The position numbers were made by a program, and so were the translations under genes. This document shows positions 112-6,552 of a DNA stretch of 64,000 bases, in pieces. The stretch covers positions 62,001 to 126,000 of the forward strand of contig JBDXCV010000013.1 of assembly GCA_039980135.1 (NCBI GenBank). Direction: 5' to 3'. The stretch is from Alphaproteobacteria bacterium (GTDB lineage Bacteria; Pseudomonadota; Alphaproteobacteria; UBA6615). Numbering within the stretch: the first letter of the stretch is position 1; each line of letters starts with the position of its first letter. The notes beneath the pieces are model-generated. The model was given only the letters and a program-made list of their open reading frames with translations, searched no databases and had not been told where the DNA came from.

Positions 112-432
112 CTAGGCGGCCGTCTTGATCTCGCCGACCTCGTTGTCGACGATCACCGGGGTCTCGAAGATGGTGATGTCCGGATCGACGCCGTAGAGGT
201 TACGAATCGCTTCGCGCCAGGGCCCGCCCTCGGCATAGACCTTTTCGGCGGCATCACGGCTTTCCCAAGTGTAGACACCGCCGCCGACGCCGCGGTCACC
301 ATCGAAAACAAAATTCTTGCGGATCAGGCCCGCCATGCCCTCGAACTTGGGTGCCACATTCTTCATGTTGGTAAAAACTTCGTCGCGTGTGGTGCCGTCT
401 TTCACTTTGAACTGGACAAGTGCCGTGATCAT
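112..432 (-). CDS. YdhR-like putative monooxygenase (dimeric alpha/beta barrel)
   Basis: This encodes 106 residues, the usual size for a single ferredoxin-like alpha/beta-barrel domain. The N-terminal strand ALVQFKV, the central GLIRKNFVFD and the GGGVYTW segment followed by a charged helix resemble the YdhR family of putative monooxygenases. Such proteins are cofactor-free or of unknown reaction, and no catalytic residue can be assigned. AGGAGA about 8 bases before the ATG supports the start. A truncated tandem paralogue follows downstream on the same strand. Family assignment is fairly sure; function is not. Confidence 0.7.
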   Translation of the reverse strand: MITALVQFKVKDGTTRDEVFTNMKNVAPKFEGMAGLIRKNFVFDGDRGVGGGVYTWESRDAAEKVYAEGGPWREAIRNLYGVDPDITIFETPVIVDNEVGEIKTAA

Positions 433-525: not shown

Positions 526-1431
526 ATGTTGACTGGACCGAAACCCGGGAAGCCAATTTGGCTGACCGGAAACCTGCAAGGCATGGGTTGGATGCTGTGC
601 ACGGCCATCCTGATCGTGACCATGCACACGATGATCAGGCATCTGGCCGATGAAGGCATGCATCCGTTCGAGATCGGGTTTTTCCGGACGTTTTTCGGTG
701 CCCCGGTTGTCGTGGTCCTGTTGTGGAAATACGGCTGGGGAATCCTGCGGACCGACCAGATCAAGGTGCACGGCATCCGCTCGGTCGGCCATGTGGTTGC
801 GATGATGATGTTTTTCACCGGTCTGACCATGACGCCGTTGGCCACCGCTAACGCGCTGGCGTTTACAGCGCCGTTGTTTGCGGCGGTTCTTGCCGTGGTG
901 ATTCTGGGCGAGGTGTTTCGCTGGCAGCGCTGGGCGGCGCTGATGCTCGGGTTCGCGGGTACGCTCGCGATCATCCGGCCGGGGTTTGTCGACGTCGATA
1001 CCGGCCCGATCATCATTCTGGCATCGTCGGGTATTTGGGGCACGATCCTGATTGTCATCAAGTCGCTCGGGAGGCGGGACGCGACCCCCACCATTGTCAC
1101 CTACATGGTGTTGTTCATGTCGCCGCTGGCGCTGATTCCCGCATTGTTCGTGTGGGAATGGCCGACCTGGGGGCAGTTGGGCATATTGCTGGTCATGGGC
1201 ACGATGGGCACCGTGGCACATCTGACCCTGACCCAGGCGTTGCGCGTAGGCGAGGCGGCGGTCGTAATGCCGATGGATTTCTTCAAACTTATCTGGGCCA
1301 CATTGCTGGGTTTCCTGTTCTTCAGTGAATTGCCGGACATATACACCTGGATCGGCGGCCTGATGATTTTCATCAGTGCGACCTATCTGGCACTGCGTGA
1401 GCGCGCCGAAACGAAACCCCGGGGAACTTGA
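526..1431 (+). CDS. EamA/DMT-superfamily transporter
   Basis: This is an inner-membrane protein of about 301 residues with roughly ten hydrophobic segments in two repeated halves, as in EamA (drug/metabolite transporter) proteins. Features include an early HTMIRHLADEG helix and the characteristic second-half segment ending in LIWATLLGFLFFSELPD. I place the start at the ATG at 526, which has GGAG five bases upstream; an in-frame ATG at 511 would add five residues. Its TGA shares one base with the ATG of the type III polyketide synthase gene, so they are translationally coupled. By context it could export that enzyme's product, but EamA proteins carry many solutes. Confidence 0.88.
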   Translation: MLTGPKPGKPIWLTGNLQGMGWMLCTAILIVTMHTMIRHLADEGMHPFEIGFFRTFFGAPVVVVLLWKYGWGILRTDQIKVHGIRSVGHVVAMMMFFTGLTMTPLATANALAFTAPLFAAVLAVVILGEVFRWQRWAALMLGFAGTLAIIRPGFVDVDTGPIIILASSGIWGTILIVIKSLGRRDATPTIVTYMVLFMSPLALIPALFVWEWPTWGQLGILLVMGTMGTVAHLTLTQALRVGEAAVVMPMDFFKLIWATLLGFLFFSELPDIYTWIGGLMIFISATYLALRERAETKPRGT

Positions 1432-2477
1432 TGAATCAGCGCGCCCATATTTCCGCGGTCGCCACGGCCGTGCCTGCGCATGTGCTTGACCAGAACGAGG
1501 TTGTTGAACGGTCGCGCGAGATATTCGCGCCGGATGTTCCCGGTTTTGAACGTTTCACGGACGCCTATCGGAACGCCGCAATCGAAACGCGCCATTCCTG
1601 TGTTCCGATCGAATGGTATGGGCAGGAACATCCGTTCTCGGAACGCAACGATCTTTACATCGAGCACGCGATCGAGCTCCTGAGCCGGGTCAGCCGGGAT
1701 CTGTTCGCGCAGGCCGGAATAACCGCTGCCGATGTGGATGCGATCGTCGTCGCCTCGACGACCGGTGTCGCGACACCGAGCCTCGATGCGTTGTTGCTGG
1801 AGCGGTTGCCTTTTCGCCGTGACGTACAGCGCCTGCCGATATTCGGCCTCGGCTGTGCCGGCGGTGTCAGCGGGCTGGCCCGGGCTGCTCAGATGGCGAT
1901 GAGTCGACCCGACAGCTGCGTTCTGTACCTTGTCGTGGAGTTGTGCGGCCTGACCTTCCGGGTCAACGACACGTCGAAGAGCAATATCATCGCCACCGCA
2001 CTTTTCGGTGACGGCGCCGCGGGCGCGATTTTGGGTTGCAACCGGCCCGGTCCAGCCGTGACGGGCTGGGGTGAGCACAGCTGGAAAAACTCACTCGATG
2101 TCATGGGGTGGGAAGTGGGCGACGATGGCCTCGGGGTCCTGTTTTCACGCGACATTCCCCATCTGGTCCGCACGCGCCTGCGCGAACCCGCATATGCTTT
2201 CCTCGAAAGCCATGGTTTAGGTCCGCAGGACATCGAGCGACATGCGTGTCATCCCGGCGGCGCGAAAGTGCTCGATGCGCTCGAGGAGGTATACGGCCTG
2301 GCGCCGGGCAGCCTCGTTCTGGCCCGTGATGTTTTGCGCCGGTTCGGGAATATGTCTGCGGCGACGGCCATGTTCGTCCTGGCGGAAACCATGCGCGAGG
2401 GTGAGCCCGGCAACTGGCTGATGACGGCGATGGGCCCTGGCTTCACGGCGTCCTTCGCACTGCTGGAGGCGTCATGA
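1431..2477 (+). CDS. Type III polyketide synthase (chalcone/alkylpyrone synthase family)
   Basis: This 348-residue thiolase-fold enzyme has the full type III PKS triad: Cys142 in GLGCAGG, His274 in CHPGG and Asn307 in FGNMSAAT. The C-terminal MGPGF motif is also present. Such enzymes extend an acyl-CoA starter with malonyl-CoA and cyclise the chain to pyrones or resorcinols. The product here cannot be read from sequence. The ATG at 1431 overlaps the exporter stop; a TTG at 1428 is a less likely start. The gene overlaps the next one, an ICMT-type methyltransferase, by four bases. That pairing resembles Bacillus bpsA-bpsB, which makes alkylpyrones and their methyl ethers. Confidence 0.92.
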   Translation: MNQRAHISAVATAVPAHVLDQNEVVERSREIFAPDVPGFERFTDAYRNAAIETRHSCVPIEWYGQEHPFSERNDLYIEHAIELLSRVSRDLFAQAGITAADVDAIVVASTTGVATPSLDALLLERLPFRRDVQRLPIFGLGCAGGVSGLARAAQMAMSRPDSCVLYLVVELCGLTFRVNDTSKSNIIATALFGDGAAGAILGCNRPGPAVTGWGEHSWKNSLDVMGWEVGDDGLGVLFSRDIPHLVRTRLREPAYAFLESHGLGPQDIERHACHPGGAKVLDALEEVYGLAPGSLVLARDVLRRFGNMSAATAMFVLAETMREGEPGNWLMTAMGPGFTASFALLEAS

Positions 2478-2971
2478 CTGTCTGGTATCTGCTGGTCGGG
2501 TTGATCGTCATTCAGCGCCTGATCGAGCTGGCCATTGCCGGGATCAACACACGCCGTTTGCTGGCCGAAGGTGGCGAGGAAGTCGGGGCAGGGCATTACC
2601 CGCTGATTGTCTTGTTGCATGCGGCCTGGTTTATCAGCCTGCTTGTTTTCGTCCCCGGTGACAGCTTCATCGACCCGATCCTACTGGGCGTGTTCGTACT
2701 GCTGCAACTCGGGCGGGTTTGGGTGCTGACGTCCCTCGGGCGATACTGGACCACCCGGATCATCACGGTGCCCAATGCGCCGTTGGTCCGGCGTGGGCCC
2801 TTTCGTTTCGTTCGTCACCCGAATTATCTGATCGTCGAGGCTGAAATCATCATCGTGCCGATGATCGCGGGAGCTTGGGAGATCGCACTCGTCTTCGGGA
2901 TGGCCAACGCCGCGGTCCTGGCGTTGCGCATCCGTGTCGAAGAGCGCGCACTTGCCGCACGCCGCGCATAG
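2474..2971 (+). CDS. Isoprenylcysteine carboxyl methyltransferase-family membrane protein
   Basis: This 165-residue integral membrane protein has about four to five hydrophobic helices. It ends in the ICMT-family signature: RRGPFRFVRHPNYL followed by a short helix with E and the terminal RIRVEERAL segment, which forms the SAM-binding region in this family. The start overlaps the PKS stop as ATGA. Next to a type III PKS, the best parallel is BpsB of Bacillus, an ICMT-like enzyme that O-methylates alkylpyrones. By inference it methylates the PKS product at the membrane. Protein prenylation is not expected in this organism. Confidence 0.85.
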   Translation: MTVWYLLVGLIVIQRLIELAIAGINTRRLLAEGGEEVGAGHYPLIVLLHAAWFISLLVFVPGDSFIDPILLGVFVLLQLGRVWVLTSLGRYWTTRIITVPNAPLVRRGPFRFVRHPNYLIVEAEIIIVPMIAGAWEIALVFGMANAAVLALRIRVEERALAARRA

Positions 2972-2976
2972 AATTT

Positions 2977-4005
2977 CTACAGAAACGGATCCGGGCGAAC
3001 ACGGATTAGCTGGCGCCCCTTGTTGCGACCCTCGTAGAGCCCGGCCAGTGCCGCGCCCGCATTTTCCAGACCGTCGACGATATCTTCGCGGTACTTGATC
3101 TTCCCGTCACGCACCCATTCAAGCAAATCGACATAGGCATCCGCATACCGGTCGGCGAAGTCGAAACAGATGAACCCCTGCATGCGGATACGATTGACCA
3201 GGAGGTTGCGCTCCGGGCGCAGGCCCGTGGGTTGGGGAATCCATGCGTCCGTCGCTGCGGTACCGCAGATCACGACGCGCCCGTGCAGCTTGATTTGCCC
3301 GAGCGCGATATCAAGGGTCTCGCCGCCCACATTGTCGTAGTAGACATCTATGCCATCCGGACAGGCTTGCCGGATGGCTCCCTCCAGATCGTCGGTCGCC
3401 TTGTAGTCGATGGCCGTGTCGAAACCGAAGACCTCGGTGCACAGCGCGGTTTTCTCGGGGCCGCCGGCGATTCCTATCGTGCGACACCCCTTGATTTTGG
3501 CTATTTGTCCCACCGCACTGCCGACCGCACCCGCCGCCGTGGAAACCAGCACTGTTTCTCCCGATTGTGGCTGCCCGACGGCCAGCAGTCCGAAATACGC
3601 CGTGTAGCCGCTGAGCCCCAGAATACCCAATGTCGTCGATAGGGGGGAGTCGTTCGGGTCGACCTTTCGAAACATTGGATGTTTCGGGTCGGCGACCGCG
3701 TATTCCGCCCAGCCGGTATTGGCGGTCACGACGTCGCCTTCCTTGATGTCGGAATTGTTGGATTCGACCACGACGCCGACACTGAACGAATGCATCGTCG
3801 TGCCTGTCTCGACGCTGGCATAGTTCCGTGCCTTGCTGATCCAGCCTTTCATGCCAGGGTCGGCCGTGACGTAGATATTGTTGATCAGAACTTCGCCGTC
3901 ACCAGGGACGGGCGCGTCTCCCTCAATCAGTTCGAACAGCTCGGGGGTAGGCAGGCCGTTTGCGCGTTCCTTGAGAATGACATGATTGTTGCGATGCTGG
4001 GACAT
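2977..4005 (-). CDS. NADP-dependent zinc-free MDR oxidoreductase (PTGR/CurA type)
   Basis: This 342-residue medium-chain dehydrogenase/reductase is of the leukotriene B4 dehydrogenase / curcumin reductase type. An N-terminal GroES-like domain contains VTADPGMKGWIS. The Rossmann segment is VLVSTAAGAVGSAVGQIAKIKG, and the nucleotide-loop region reads YYDNVGGETLD. It should reduce activated double bonds of ketones or aldehydes using NADPH. The ATG at 4005 has a strong AGGAAGG seven bases upstream; in-frame starts further out lack such spacing. It converges on the methyltransferase gene with a 5-base gap. Confidence 0.88.
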   Translation of the reverse strand: MSQHRNNHVILKERANGLPTPELFELIEGDAPVPGDGEVLINNIYVTADPGMKGWISKARNYASVETGTTMHSFSVGVVVESNNSDIKEGDVVTANTGWAEYAVADPKHPMFRKVDPNDSPLSTTLGILGLSGYTAYFGLLAVGQPQSGETVLVSTAAGAVGSAVGQIAKIKGCRTIGIAGGPEKTALCTEVFGFDTAIDYKATDDLEGAIRQACPDGIDVYYDNVGGETLDIALGQIKLHGRVVICGTAATDAWIPQPTGLRPERNLLVNRIRMQGFICFDFADRYADAYVDLLEWVRDGKIKYREDIVDGLENAGAALAGLYEGRNKGRQLIRVRPDPFL

Positions 4006-4133
4006 TGTCATGCCTTCCTGTTGACGATCGGCGGGGAGCAATCTATGCGGTCGTTGCGTTGCCTATACTGACGATGCGATAGGCTACGGGGCAAACGGAT
4101 AGTTTGCCGTTCGAACGAGGAAACGCAATCGAC

Positions 4134-4637: not shown

Positions 4638-5138
4638 TCAGCGTGCGGGCGTGACCTGAACCGGCGCGTTGCTACCGGCGCCGGGAGTGGCCCCGGACTG
4701 GCGCGGGGCAACGGTGATCGTCGCGATACTGCCGCCGAGGGTCCGGCCTTCGATCTGGACGGTTGCGGCGCGTTCGCCCCGCGTGAACGACAACACGCTG
4801 ATTTCCGCCTGAACACTCATGATCGGCGACCAGCCGAAATTGGGCATTTGCGTTTGATAGAGCGCGAATGTCGGTGTCGCGCCCTGGCCCACATTCAGGA
4901 CGATCCGCCCGGTCCACCGGTCGAGATCGCCGAGGATGAGAGAGCGCTCCACATTCAGCGACGAGTCCGGGGGGATGGGGATGTCCGTCAGCAGGGAGAA
5001 GTTCTTCTCGACGCCCGATGTTCCGTCACCACCCGAGGAGGTGGGCTGCAACCGGGTGCCCTGTGTGCACGCCGCCAAGGCAAACAGTGCCGCGAACACG
5101 AGTACATTCGATCTGAGACTTCGGCGCCTGGAAACCAT
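4638..5138 (-). CDS. Predicted lipoprotein of unknown function
   Basis: This encodes 166 residues. A basic start and hydrophobic stretch end in the lipobox LAAC (cysteine near residue 24), so the mature protein is likely lipid-anchored in the envelope. After a Ser/Gly-rich linker it has one compact domain with the segment DIPIPPDSSLNVERS and a core of alternating beta-strand-like sequence, ending in a Pro/Ala tail. I do not recognise a named family. It is convergent and adjacent to the PqiA-like gene, so a shared envelope role is possible but unsupported. Confidence 0.75.
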   Translation of the reverse strand: MVSRRRSLRSNVLVFAALFALAACTQGTRLQPTSSGGDGTSGVEKNFSLLTDIPIPPDSSLNVERSLILGDLDRWTGRIVLNVGQGATPTFALYQTQMPNFGWSPIMSVQAEISVLSFTRGERAATVQIEGRTLGGSIATITVAPRQSGATPGAGSNAPVQVTPAR

Positions 5139-5667: not shown

Positions 5668-6552
5668 ATGTCCATGACGACCGACCGTCCTACCGACGCG
5701 CCGTTTCGCGGTGTCCTGATGATGTGCTTCGCGGTGTTCTGTTTCGCGACGATGAACGGGTTCGTCAAGGAATTGCGGGGCCAGGAACTGCCGCTGATAG
5801 AGATCATCTGGGGTCGCTATTTCTTCCACACATTGTTTGTACTGGCGATCTTTCCCCGCAGAATTCCCACGCTCCTGGCCGGCTCAGACAAGGGTCTGCA
5901 GGTGGTCCGCTCGATCCTCGTGTTGGCCGCCACCGCCTGCATGTTCACGGCGGTCGGATTGATGCCTTTGGCCGATGCCGTGGCGATCACATTCATTGCC
6001 CCGTTGCTGATCACCGCATTGTCCGTGCCGCTGCTCAAGGAGCGGGTGGGCCTGCGGCGCTGGATTGCCGTGTTCGTCGGGTTTCTCGGCATGATCGTGA
6101 TCATACGGCCGGGCGGCGGGCTGTTTCAGCTTGCCGCGTTGCTGCCGATCACCGTCACGCTGTTCTATGCGATCTACCAGATCATCACGCGGATGATCAG
6201 CCACCGGACCGATCCGATCAATTCCGTGTTCTATACCGCGATCGTCGGCGGTGTGGTGATGAGCCTGATCGTGCCCTTTTTCTGGCAAACGCCAACGCTT
6301 GAGCAATGGGGCCTGCTTGTCGTTGCGGGCTTCCTTGGCGGACTTGGGCATTGGGCAATCATTCTCGCCTACCAGCGTGCCGAAGCCCCTCTGGTGGCAC
6401 CGTTCGCCTACAGCGAATTGATTTGGGCGTCCCTGATGGGTATCGCGCTGTTCGGTGACTTTCCCGACGTCTGGACCCTGGTTGGTGCCGGGATCATCGC
6501 CATGAGCGGTATCTATATTCTGCGGCGAGAGAGAACGACCAAGGCGCGGTAG
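5668..6552 (+). CDS. EamA/DMT-superfamily transporter
   Basis: This 294-residue inner-membrane protein has about ten helices in two EamA repeats. Typical segments are FRGVLMMCFAVFCFATMNG in the first helix, PLADAVAITFIAPLL in the fourth, and APFAYSELIWASLMG in the second repeat. It is a paralogue of the transporter at 526-1431, but it lies next to an AhpD-like gene rather than a biosynthetic gene. The substrate is unknown; related proteins move amino acids, nucleosides or S-adenosylmethionine. Confidence 0.88.
   Translation: MSMTTDRPTDAPFRGVLMMCFAVFCFATMNGFVKELRGQELPLIEIIWGRYFFHTLFVLAIFPRRIPTLLAGSDKGLQVVRSILVLAATACMFTAVGLMPLADAVAITFIAPLLITALSVPLLKERVGLRRWIAVFVGFLGMIVIIRPGGGLFQLAALLPITVTLFYAIYQIITRMISHRTDPINSVFYTAIVGGVVMSLIVPFFWQTPTLEQWGLLVVAGFLGGLGHWAIILAYQRAEAPLVAPFAYSELIWASLMGIALFGDFPDVWTLVGAGIIAMSGIYILRRERTTKAR

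Follow-up and report, generated by a model that had tools for sequence, protein, structure and literature searches.

The window, that is, the whole 64,000-nucleotide stretch of DNA analysed here, carries near its start a gene for an EamA/DMT-family membrane transporter (hereafter DMT), followed on the same strand by genes for a type III polyketide synthase (PKS) and an ICMT-family methyltransferase that overlap their predecessors. The question raised by this locus is whether the three genes form a single unit that makes a lipid and moves it across the membrane, as proposed in the earlier note on this DNA, or a biosynthetic pair located behind a transporter that belongs elsewhere. The analysis described below divides that proposal: the PKS-ICMT pair, likely making a methylated alkylpyrone or alkylresorcinol, stands, whereas the inclusion of the DMT in the pathway, as the carrier of the lipid, does not. 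The nearest named relatives of the source genome are metagenome-assembled Rhodospirillaceae bacteria, and a contig scan with a single protein as the query reached three close relatives only.

Overlapping genes of the locus

The TGA stop codon of the DMT gene (1429-1431) shares a single base with the ATG of the PKS gene (1431), and the PKS stop codon (2475-2477) and the ICMT start codon (ATG at 2474) form a four-base overlap (ATGA). These overlaps had been described in the earlier note, and they are borne out, together with the coordinates and the intactness of the three genes, by the open reading frames and the Pfam matches (Table 1). The DMT start at 526 is favored over an in-frame ATG at 511 because a ribosome-binding-like motif, CCGGAG, is located directly 5' of 526, and because relatives have a similar motif before the homologous start, the ATG at 511 being unconserved. 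In intact pairwise comparisons, dN/dS is 0.07-0.12 for the DMT, 0.03-0.10 for the PKS, and 0.06-0.14 for the ICMT, so that all three genes look functional. Given these values (0.03-0.14 overall) and the recurrence of both overlaps in other genomes (64 of 80 loci for PKS/ICMT and 10 of 12 for DMT/PKS; see below), the three-gene arrangement goes beyond chance.

Table 1 Features at and around the three-gene locus (positions in the window)
Feature	Position	Strand	Remarks
YdhR-family small protein	112..432	-	divergent from DMT; Pfam ydhR barely above cut-off; adjoins DMT in 16/16 block genomes
EamA/DMT-family membrane transporter (DMT)	526..1431	+	301 aa; Pfam EamA 107 bits
Type III PKS, Pks11-like	1431..2477	+	348 aa; Pfam Chal_sti_synt_N 76 bits, Chal_sti_synt_C 49 bits
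ICMT-family integral-membrane methyltransferase	2474..2971	+	165 aa; Pfam ICMT 97.5 bits
ADH_N_2 oxidoreductase	2977..4014	-	named by Pfam; faces three-gene unit; block gene, kept in PKS-less G001 and G007/G015/G019
Lipoprotein-like conserved gene	4641-5138	-	no Pfam match
Second EamA gene	5668-6552	+	~30% identical to DMT; syntenic and conserved, marking the block's downstream end

The PKS-ICMT pair in Alphaproteobacteria

The PKS has the thiolase fold and the Cys-His-Asn triad of type III PKSs. Its AlphaFold model (pLDDT 95.5) best matches, among PDB structures, Pks11 of Mycobacterium tuberculosis (4jap; TM 0.92, ~34% identity), which is also the nearest protein by phmmer (E 8.5e-59, with the next different protein at 2.4e-37) and the nearest solved structure in a profile search (E 9e-86). 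The triad, C142-H274-N307, previously noticed as intact in this one protein, is identical in 80 of the 80 alphaproteobacterial homologs, and so is W227, which aligns with W230 of Pks11. Resorcinol formation in ArsB requires a tryptophan in this position, which is kept in SrsA, FtpA, Pks10, and Pks11 (PMC5916927); with W227 at the Pks11 W230/ArsB position, the PKS shares this residue with the alkylresorcinol-forming enzymes. DpgA (dihydroxyphenylacetyl-CoA synthase) was rejected as an identity for this protein, which scores 142.5 bits against the NCBIfam equivalog cut-off of 425.

The methyltransferase belongs to the ICMT family by its PF04140 score, which is above the cut-off, its Ma-ICMT-like fold (model pLDDT 93.6; top PDB match Ma-ICMT, 4a2n, TM 0.60), and its RHPxY motif. 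Residues H115-P116-N117-Y118 and the C-terminal R152 and E156 do not vary among the alphaproteobacterial homologs; the earlier note had recognized the C-terminal ICMT signature. A true protein-S-isoprenylcysteine methyltransferase was considered and rejected, the score being 24.1 bits compared to the cut-off of 160 for NCBIfam NF040696. The ICMT-family protein probably O-methylates the PKS product; each of the two proteins is the sole match of its own Pfam family within the source genome.

Scored at E <= 1e-60, the PKS is carried by 72 of the 385 sampled genomes of the class. Among the 81 PKS loci inspected, one is at a contig edge, which leaves 80 testable loci; in 79 of these, the ICMT gene is found on the same strand no more than 60 bases downstream of the PKS gene, and in 64, a four-base overlap is possible. 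The pair is thus both old and tight. The methyltransferase gene directly 3' of the PKS gene on the same strand is the arrangement of the BpsAB and SrsAB units, and the PKS-ICMT pair is probably a functional unit of this described kind, widespread in Alphaproteobacteria; the overlaps further suggest that the two genes are co-transcribed. At one locus (G397, L103:5043-6086), a single TAA splits the PKS frame, which could reflect a pseudogene or an assembly error.

Outside the DMT-linked clade described below, neither a transporter nor an FAD monooxygenase recurs among the 134 genes that immediately flank the pair; the commonest family among these neighbors is DUF502 (16 genes), the rest being scattered. 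In several other alphaproteobacterial families, the pair lies beside a DUF502-recG-like housekeeping neighborhood (L042, L043, L044, L047, L049, and others). This recurrent neighborhood presumably has the composition DUF502-recG-sdhE-mfd, the last three genes being named from the look of their sequences and not from Pfam.

The transporter and its conserved gene block

The DMT contains two PF00892 stretches, as expected of the EamA/DMT family, and no PDB entry was found to match it in sequence. In one clade of the source genome's family, an EamA gene is located directly upstream of the pair in 12 of the 12 genomes, and in 10 of these, an ATG overlaps the DMT stop codon by one or four bases. The DMT-linked PKSs form a single clade (SH-aLRT 91). 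At the other 69 loci, 64 of which include at least 1.5 kb of upstream sequence, no EamA gene was found within 5 kb of the pair, where the sequence reached. Thus, the neighborhood survey of alphaproteobacterial PKS and ICMT genes, the check suggested in the earlier note, places the coupled transporter in one clade only.

Within this family, the DMT is embedded in a block of genes in the order malonyl-CoA decarboxylase, SDR, small membrane protein, quinone-oxidoreductase-like protein, YdhR, DMT, PKS-ICMT (where present), and ADH_N_2 oxidoreductase, followed, with some variation, by a PqiA-like protein, a CMD protein, and the second EamA gene. All 16 block-bearing genomes encode the DMT, and 12 of them encode the PKS and ICMT. 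Judging by gene order and retention, the DMT belongs to this older conserved block and not to the biosynthetic pair, and the YdhR gene adjoining it is, likewise, a block gene outside the pair.

Several other features of the block were observed. The second EamA gene was considered and set aside: at only ~30% identity to the DMT, it is a separate gene. A third, distinct EamA gene (L064:3938-4840, L065:6290-7192, L037:3435-4337) comes after the DMT in genus g2, which lacks the PKS, and, in the PKS-bearing G012, beyond the ICMT gene. Two YdhR-family genes lie in tandem on the minus strand, divergent from the DMT (L076:6765-7432, corresponding to 1-82 and 112-432 of the window); the tandem is found also in G001, and most relatives have a single YdhR gene. 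The malonyl-CoA decarboxylase gene of the block is just 5' of the window (L076:2633-4063, G000:C13:57633-59063); the encoded enzyme consumes the PKS extender unit, yet PKS-less relatives retain this gene as well.

The four block-bearing genomes that lack the pair are the most informative with regard to the role of the DMT. In G001, from the same genus as the source genome, the gene order is that of the window, with the PKS and ICMT genes absent, and the block genes are mostly 79-85% identical to those of the window or its congeners. A PKS start still overlaps the DMT stop codon in this genome, followed by ~29 PKS codons (55% identical), and the remnant, in an alignment made by eye, runs straight into the final codons of the ICMT gene and on into the oxidoreductase gene that faces the unit; we estimate the deletion at roughly 1.4 kb. 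The assemblies are drafts, and this scar is located inside a contig, away from the edge. The DMT of G001 is intact and 82% identical, with a dN/dS of 0.09-0.10, the same as in the PKS-bearing congeners. In G007, G015, and G019, which represent a second genus, the block and the DMT are kept and the pair is absent, the DMT being followed by unrelated sequence and then by another EamA gene. The remainder of each of these four genomes yielded no PKS homolog. In the block tree and the DMT tree alike, both PKS-less groups are nested among PKS carriers, although several forks are weakly supported, so that two separate loss events explain the pattern most simply. Eight further genomes of the family, several of them incomplete, are without the block, and the search for malonyl-CoA decarboxylase in these was run without a positive control; in G005, G008, G010, G017, G022, and G023, most of which are incomplete assemblies, both the DMT and the PKS are absent, but close orthologs of the tested block genes are mostly missing too, so that this joint absence carries little weight as evidence of co-loss.

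Conservation analysis therefore separates the transporter from the pair, with the DMT kept in 4 of the 16 block genomes in which the PKS and ICMT are gone, the outcome that the earlier note had named in advance as telling against its reading. Obligate membership of the DMT in the pathway was rejected on the ground that PKS-less relatives retain it under purifying selection; nor does the DMT show the joint gain and loss with biosynthetic genes that is expected of a dedicated exporter. Because the DMT is kept after the loss of the lipid genes, it is probably not the dedicated exporter of the lipid, and the comparisons of genomes suggest that it has no role in lipid transport. The claim that the DMT moves the lipid thus loses its footing, given that the transporter outlives the pair in two lineages and that an EamA gene accompanies the pair at 0 of the 69 other loci. 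We regard as quite unlikely the alternative in which the DMT became a dedicated partner through a single recruitment, so that the three genes form an export unit with the DMT exporting or flipping a methylated alkylpyrone or alkylresorcinol: the strict adjacency (12 of 12), the single origin of the linkage, and the frequent start-stop overlap are what such a unit would show, but the same two losses and the 69 loci speak against it, as does the nature of the known EamA substrates, which so far are mostly small polar metabolites and not C15+ lipids. It is very doubtful that an ancestral, separable DMT was secondarily co-opted in the twelve linked genomes to export or flip a methylated phenolic lipid; if it was, this EamA protein would be the first of the DMT family to carry a type III PKS lipid. 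In genomes with both, export of the product by a DMT of broad range is still conceivable. In the literature searched, we found no report that places an EamA gene in a type III PKS unit, and the few search hits with both terms came from genome surveys. The more general implication is that gene overlap need not imply pathway membership: a translationally coupled transporter survives the loss of the biosynthetic genes 3' of it.

Proposed product and comparison with known systems

The reading that we favor, and consider likely, is that the BpsAB/SrsAB-like PKS-ICMT pair makes an O-methylated alkylresorcinol or alkylpyrone and is coupled behind a resident DMT that is not a dedicated exporter. The Pks11-like fold, the resorcinol tryptophan, and the ICMT fold all agree with the methylated product that the earlier note had anticipated for a pair of the BpsAB type. 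Against this reading, the identity of the PKS to Pks11 is only ~34%, and the overlap of a start codon with the DMT stop codon, kept in 10 of 12 genomes, is compatible with joint regulation of the three genes. For the substrate, the product, the position of methylation, and the membrane location of the product, we infer the following scheme. With malonyl-CoA as the extender, the PKS would lengthen a long-chain acyl starter and cyclize the chain, giving an alkylresorcinol (or alkylresorcylic acid), an alkylpyrone, or both; the membrane-embedded ICMT-like enzyme would methylate this product with SAM, and the methylated lipid would stay within the membrane or close to it. Among uncultured marine Rhodospirillaceae-like bacteria, one lineage has the pair, translationally coupled, behind the resident DMT, which would supply it with a transcription and translation context. 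To our knowledge, no PKS of this alphaproteobacterial clade has been assigned a product, and in the literature searched, none is reported for the PKS-ICMT module.

Two alternatives concern the fate of the product. The methoxy-alkylresorcinol could be a lipoquinone precursor that is oxidized by an unlinked oxidase to a membrane electron carrier, similarly to the mycobacterial Pks10 quinones; in that case, PKS10 belongs to a three-gene operon, and its product is O-methylated and oxidized to quinones (PMC5916927). W227 is consistent with the resorcinol chemistry that this requires, and the SI isolate codes of two named congeners, which we read as Saanich Inlet, point to a low-oxygen site, but an FAD monooxygenase recurs neither in the 134 flanking genes of the class nor in the block of the window, and we deem this end product unlikely; it would refine the final step of the favored reading and leave the PKS-ICMT part uncontradicted. 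A diffusible signal or an antimicrobial pyrone, in place of a structural lipid, is an unlikely product of the pair: the Bacillus two-gene PKS/methyltransferase operon is a precedent (PMC5686519), and Bacillus alkylpyrones are reported to affect sporulation and biofilm, but the unvarying tryptophan indicates resorcinol-type cyclization, and a recurrent linked exporter is absent. If the favored reading of a methylated membrane lipid holds, the survey makes the PKS and ICMT a compact lipid module whose two genes are almost never apart in Alphaproteobacteria, and work on one member could then assign a product to many.

Among the known systems, BpsB and SrsB are members of the ICMT family. The bpsA-bpsB genes of Bacillus subtilis comprise a two-gene operon responsible for alkylpyrones, with alkylresorcinols as minor products, and for a methylated form (PMC5686519); like the pair described here, they combine a type III PKS with a methyltransferase, a likeness drawn from the published description and not from sequence, and the difference is the EamA gene located upstream in one clade. 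SrsA-SrsB(-SrsC) of Streptomyces griseus, also likened by literature description, include a PKS and an O-methyltransferase, SrsB, which acts on alkylresorcylic acid according to a title cited in PMC5916927; the resorcinol tryptophan is common to both systems, but no SrsC-like hydroxylase adjoins the pair here. Mycobacterial Pks11, the solved structure nearest to the PKS (34% identity, TM 0.92, W230 equivalent to W227), is itself encoded among type I PKS genes, and Pks10, the product of which is O-methylated, is itself in the three-gene operon that leads to quinones. Clusters of a type III PKS, a methyltransferase, and an FAD monooxygenase are described in Acetobacteraceae, their products and those of relatives in Rhodospirillales being given as unknown; these share the PKS and methyltransferase with the present locus but add the monooxygenase, and a DMT goes unmentioned in the portion of that source available (PMC8776678). 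The hierridin hidABC cluster and those of Planctomycetota, in which a type III PKS and a methyltransferase yield alkylresorcinols (PMC8086630, PMC10896814), differ in gene order and include an oxidoreductase, and resemble the alphaproteobacterial pair at the level of the PKS combined with a methyltransferase.
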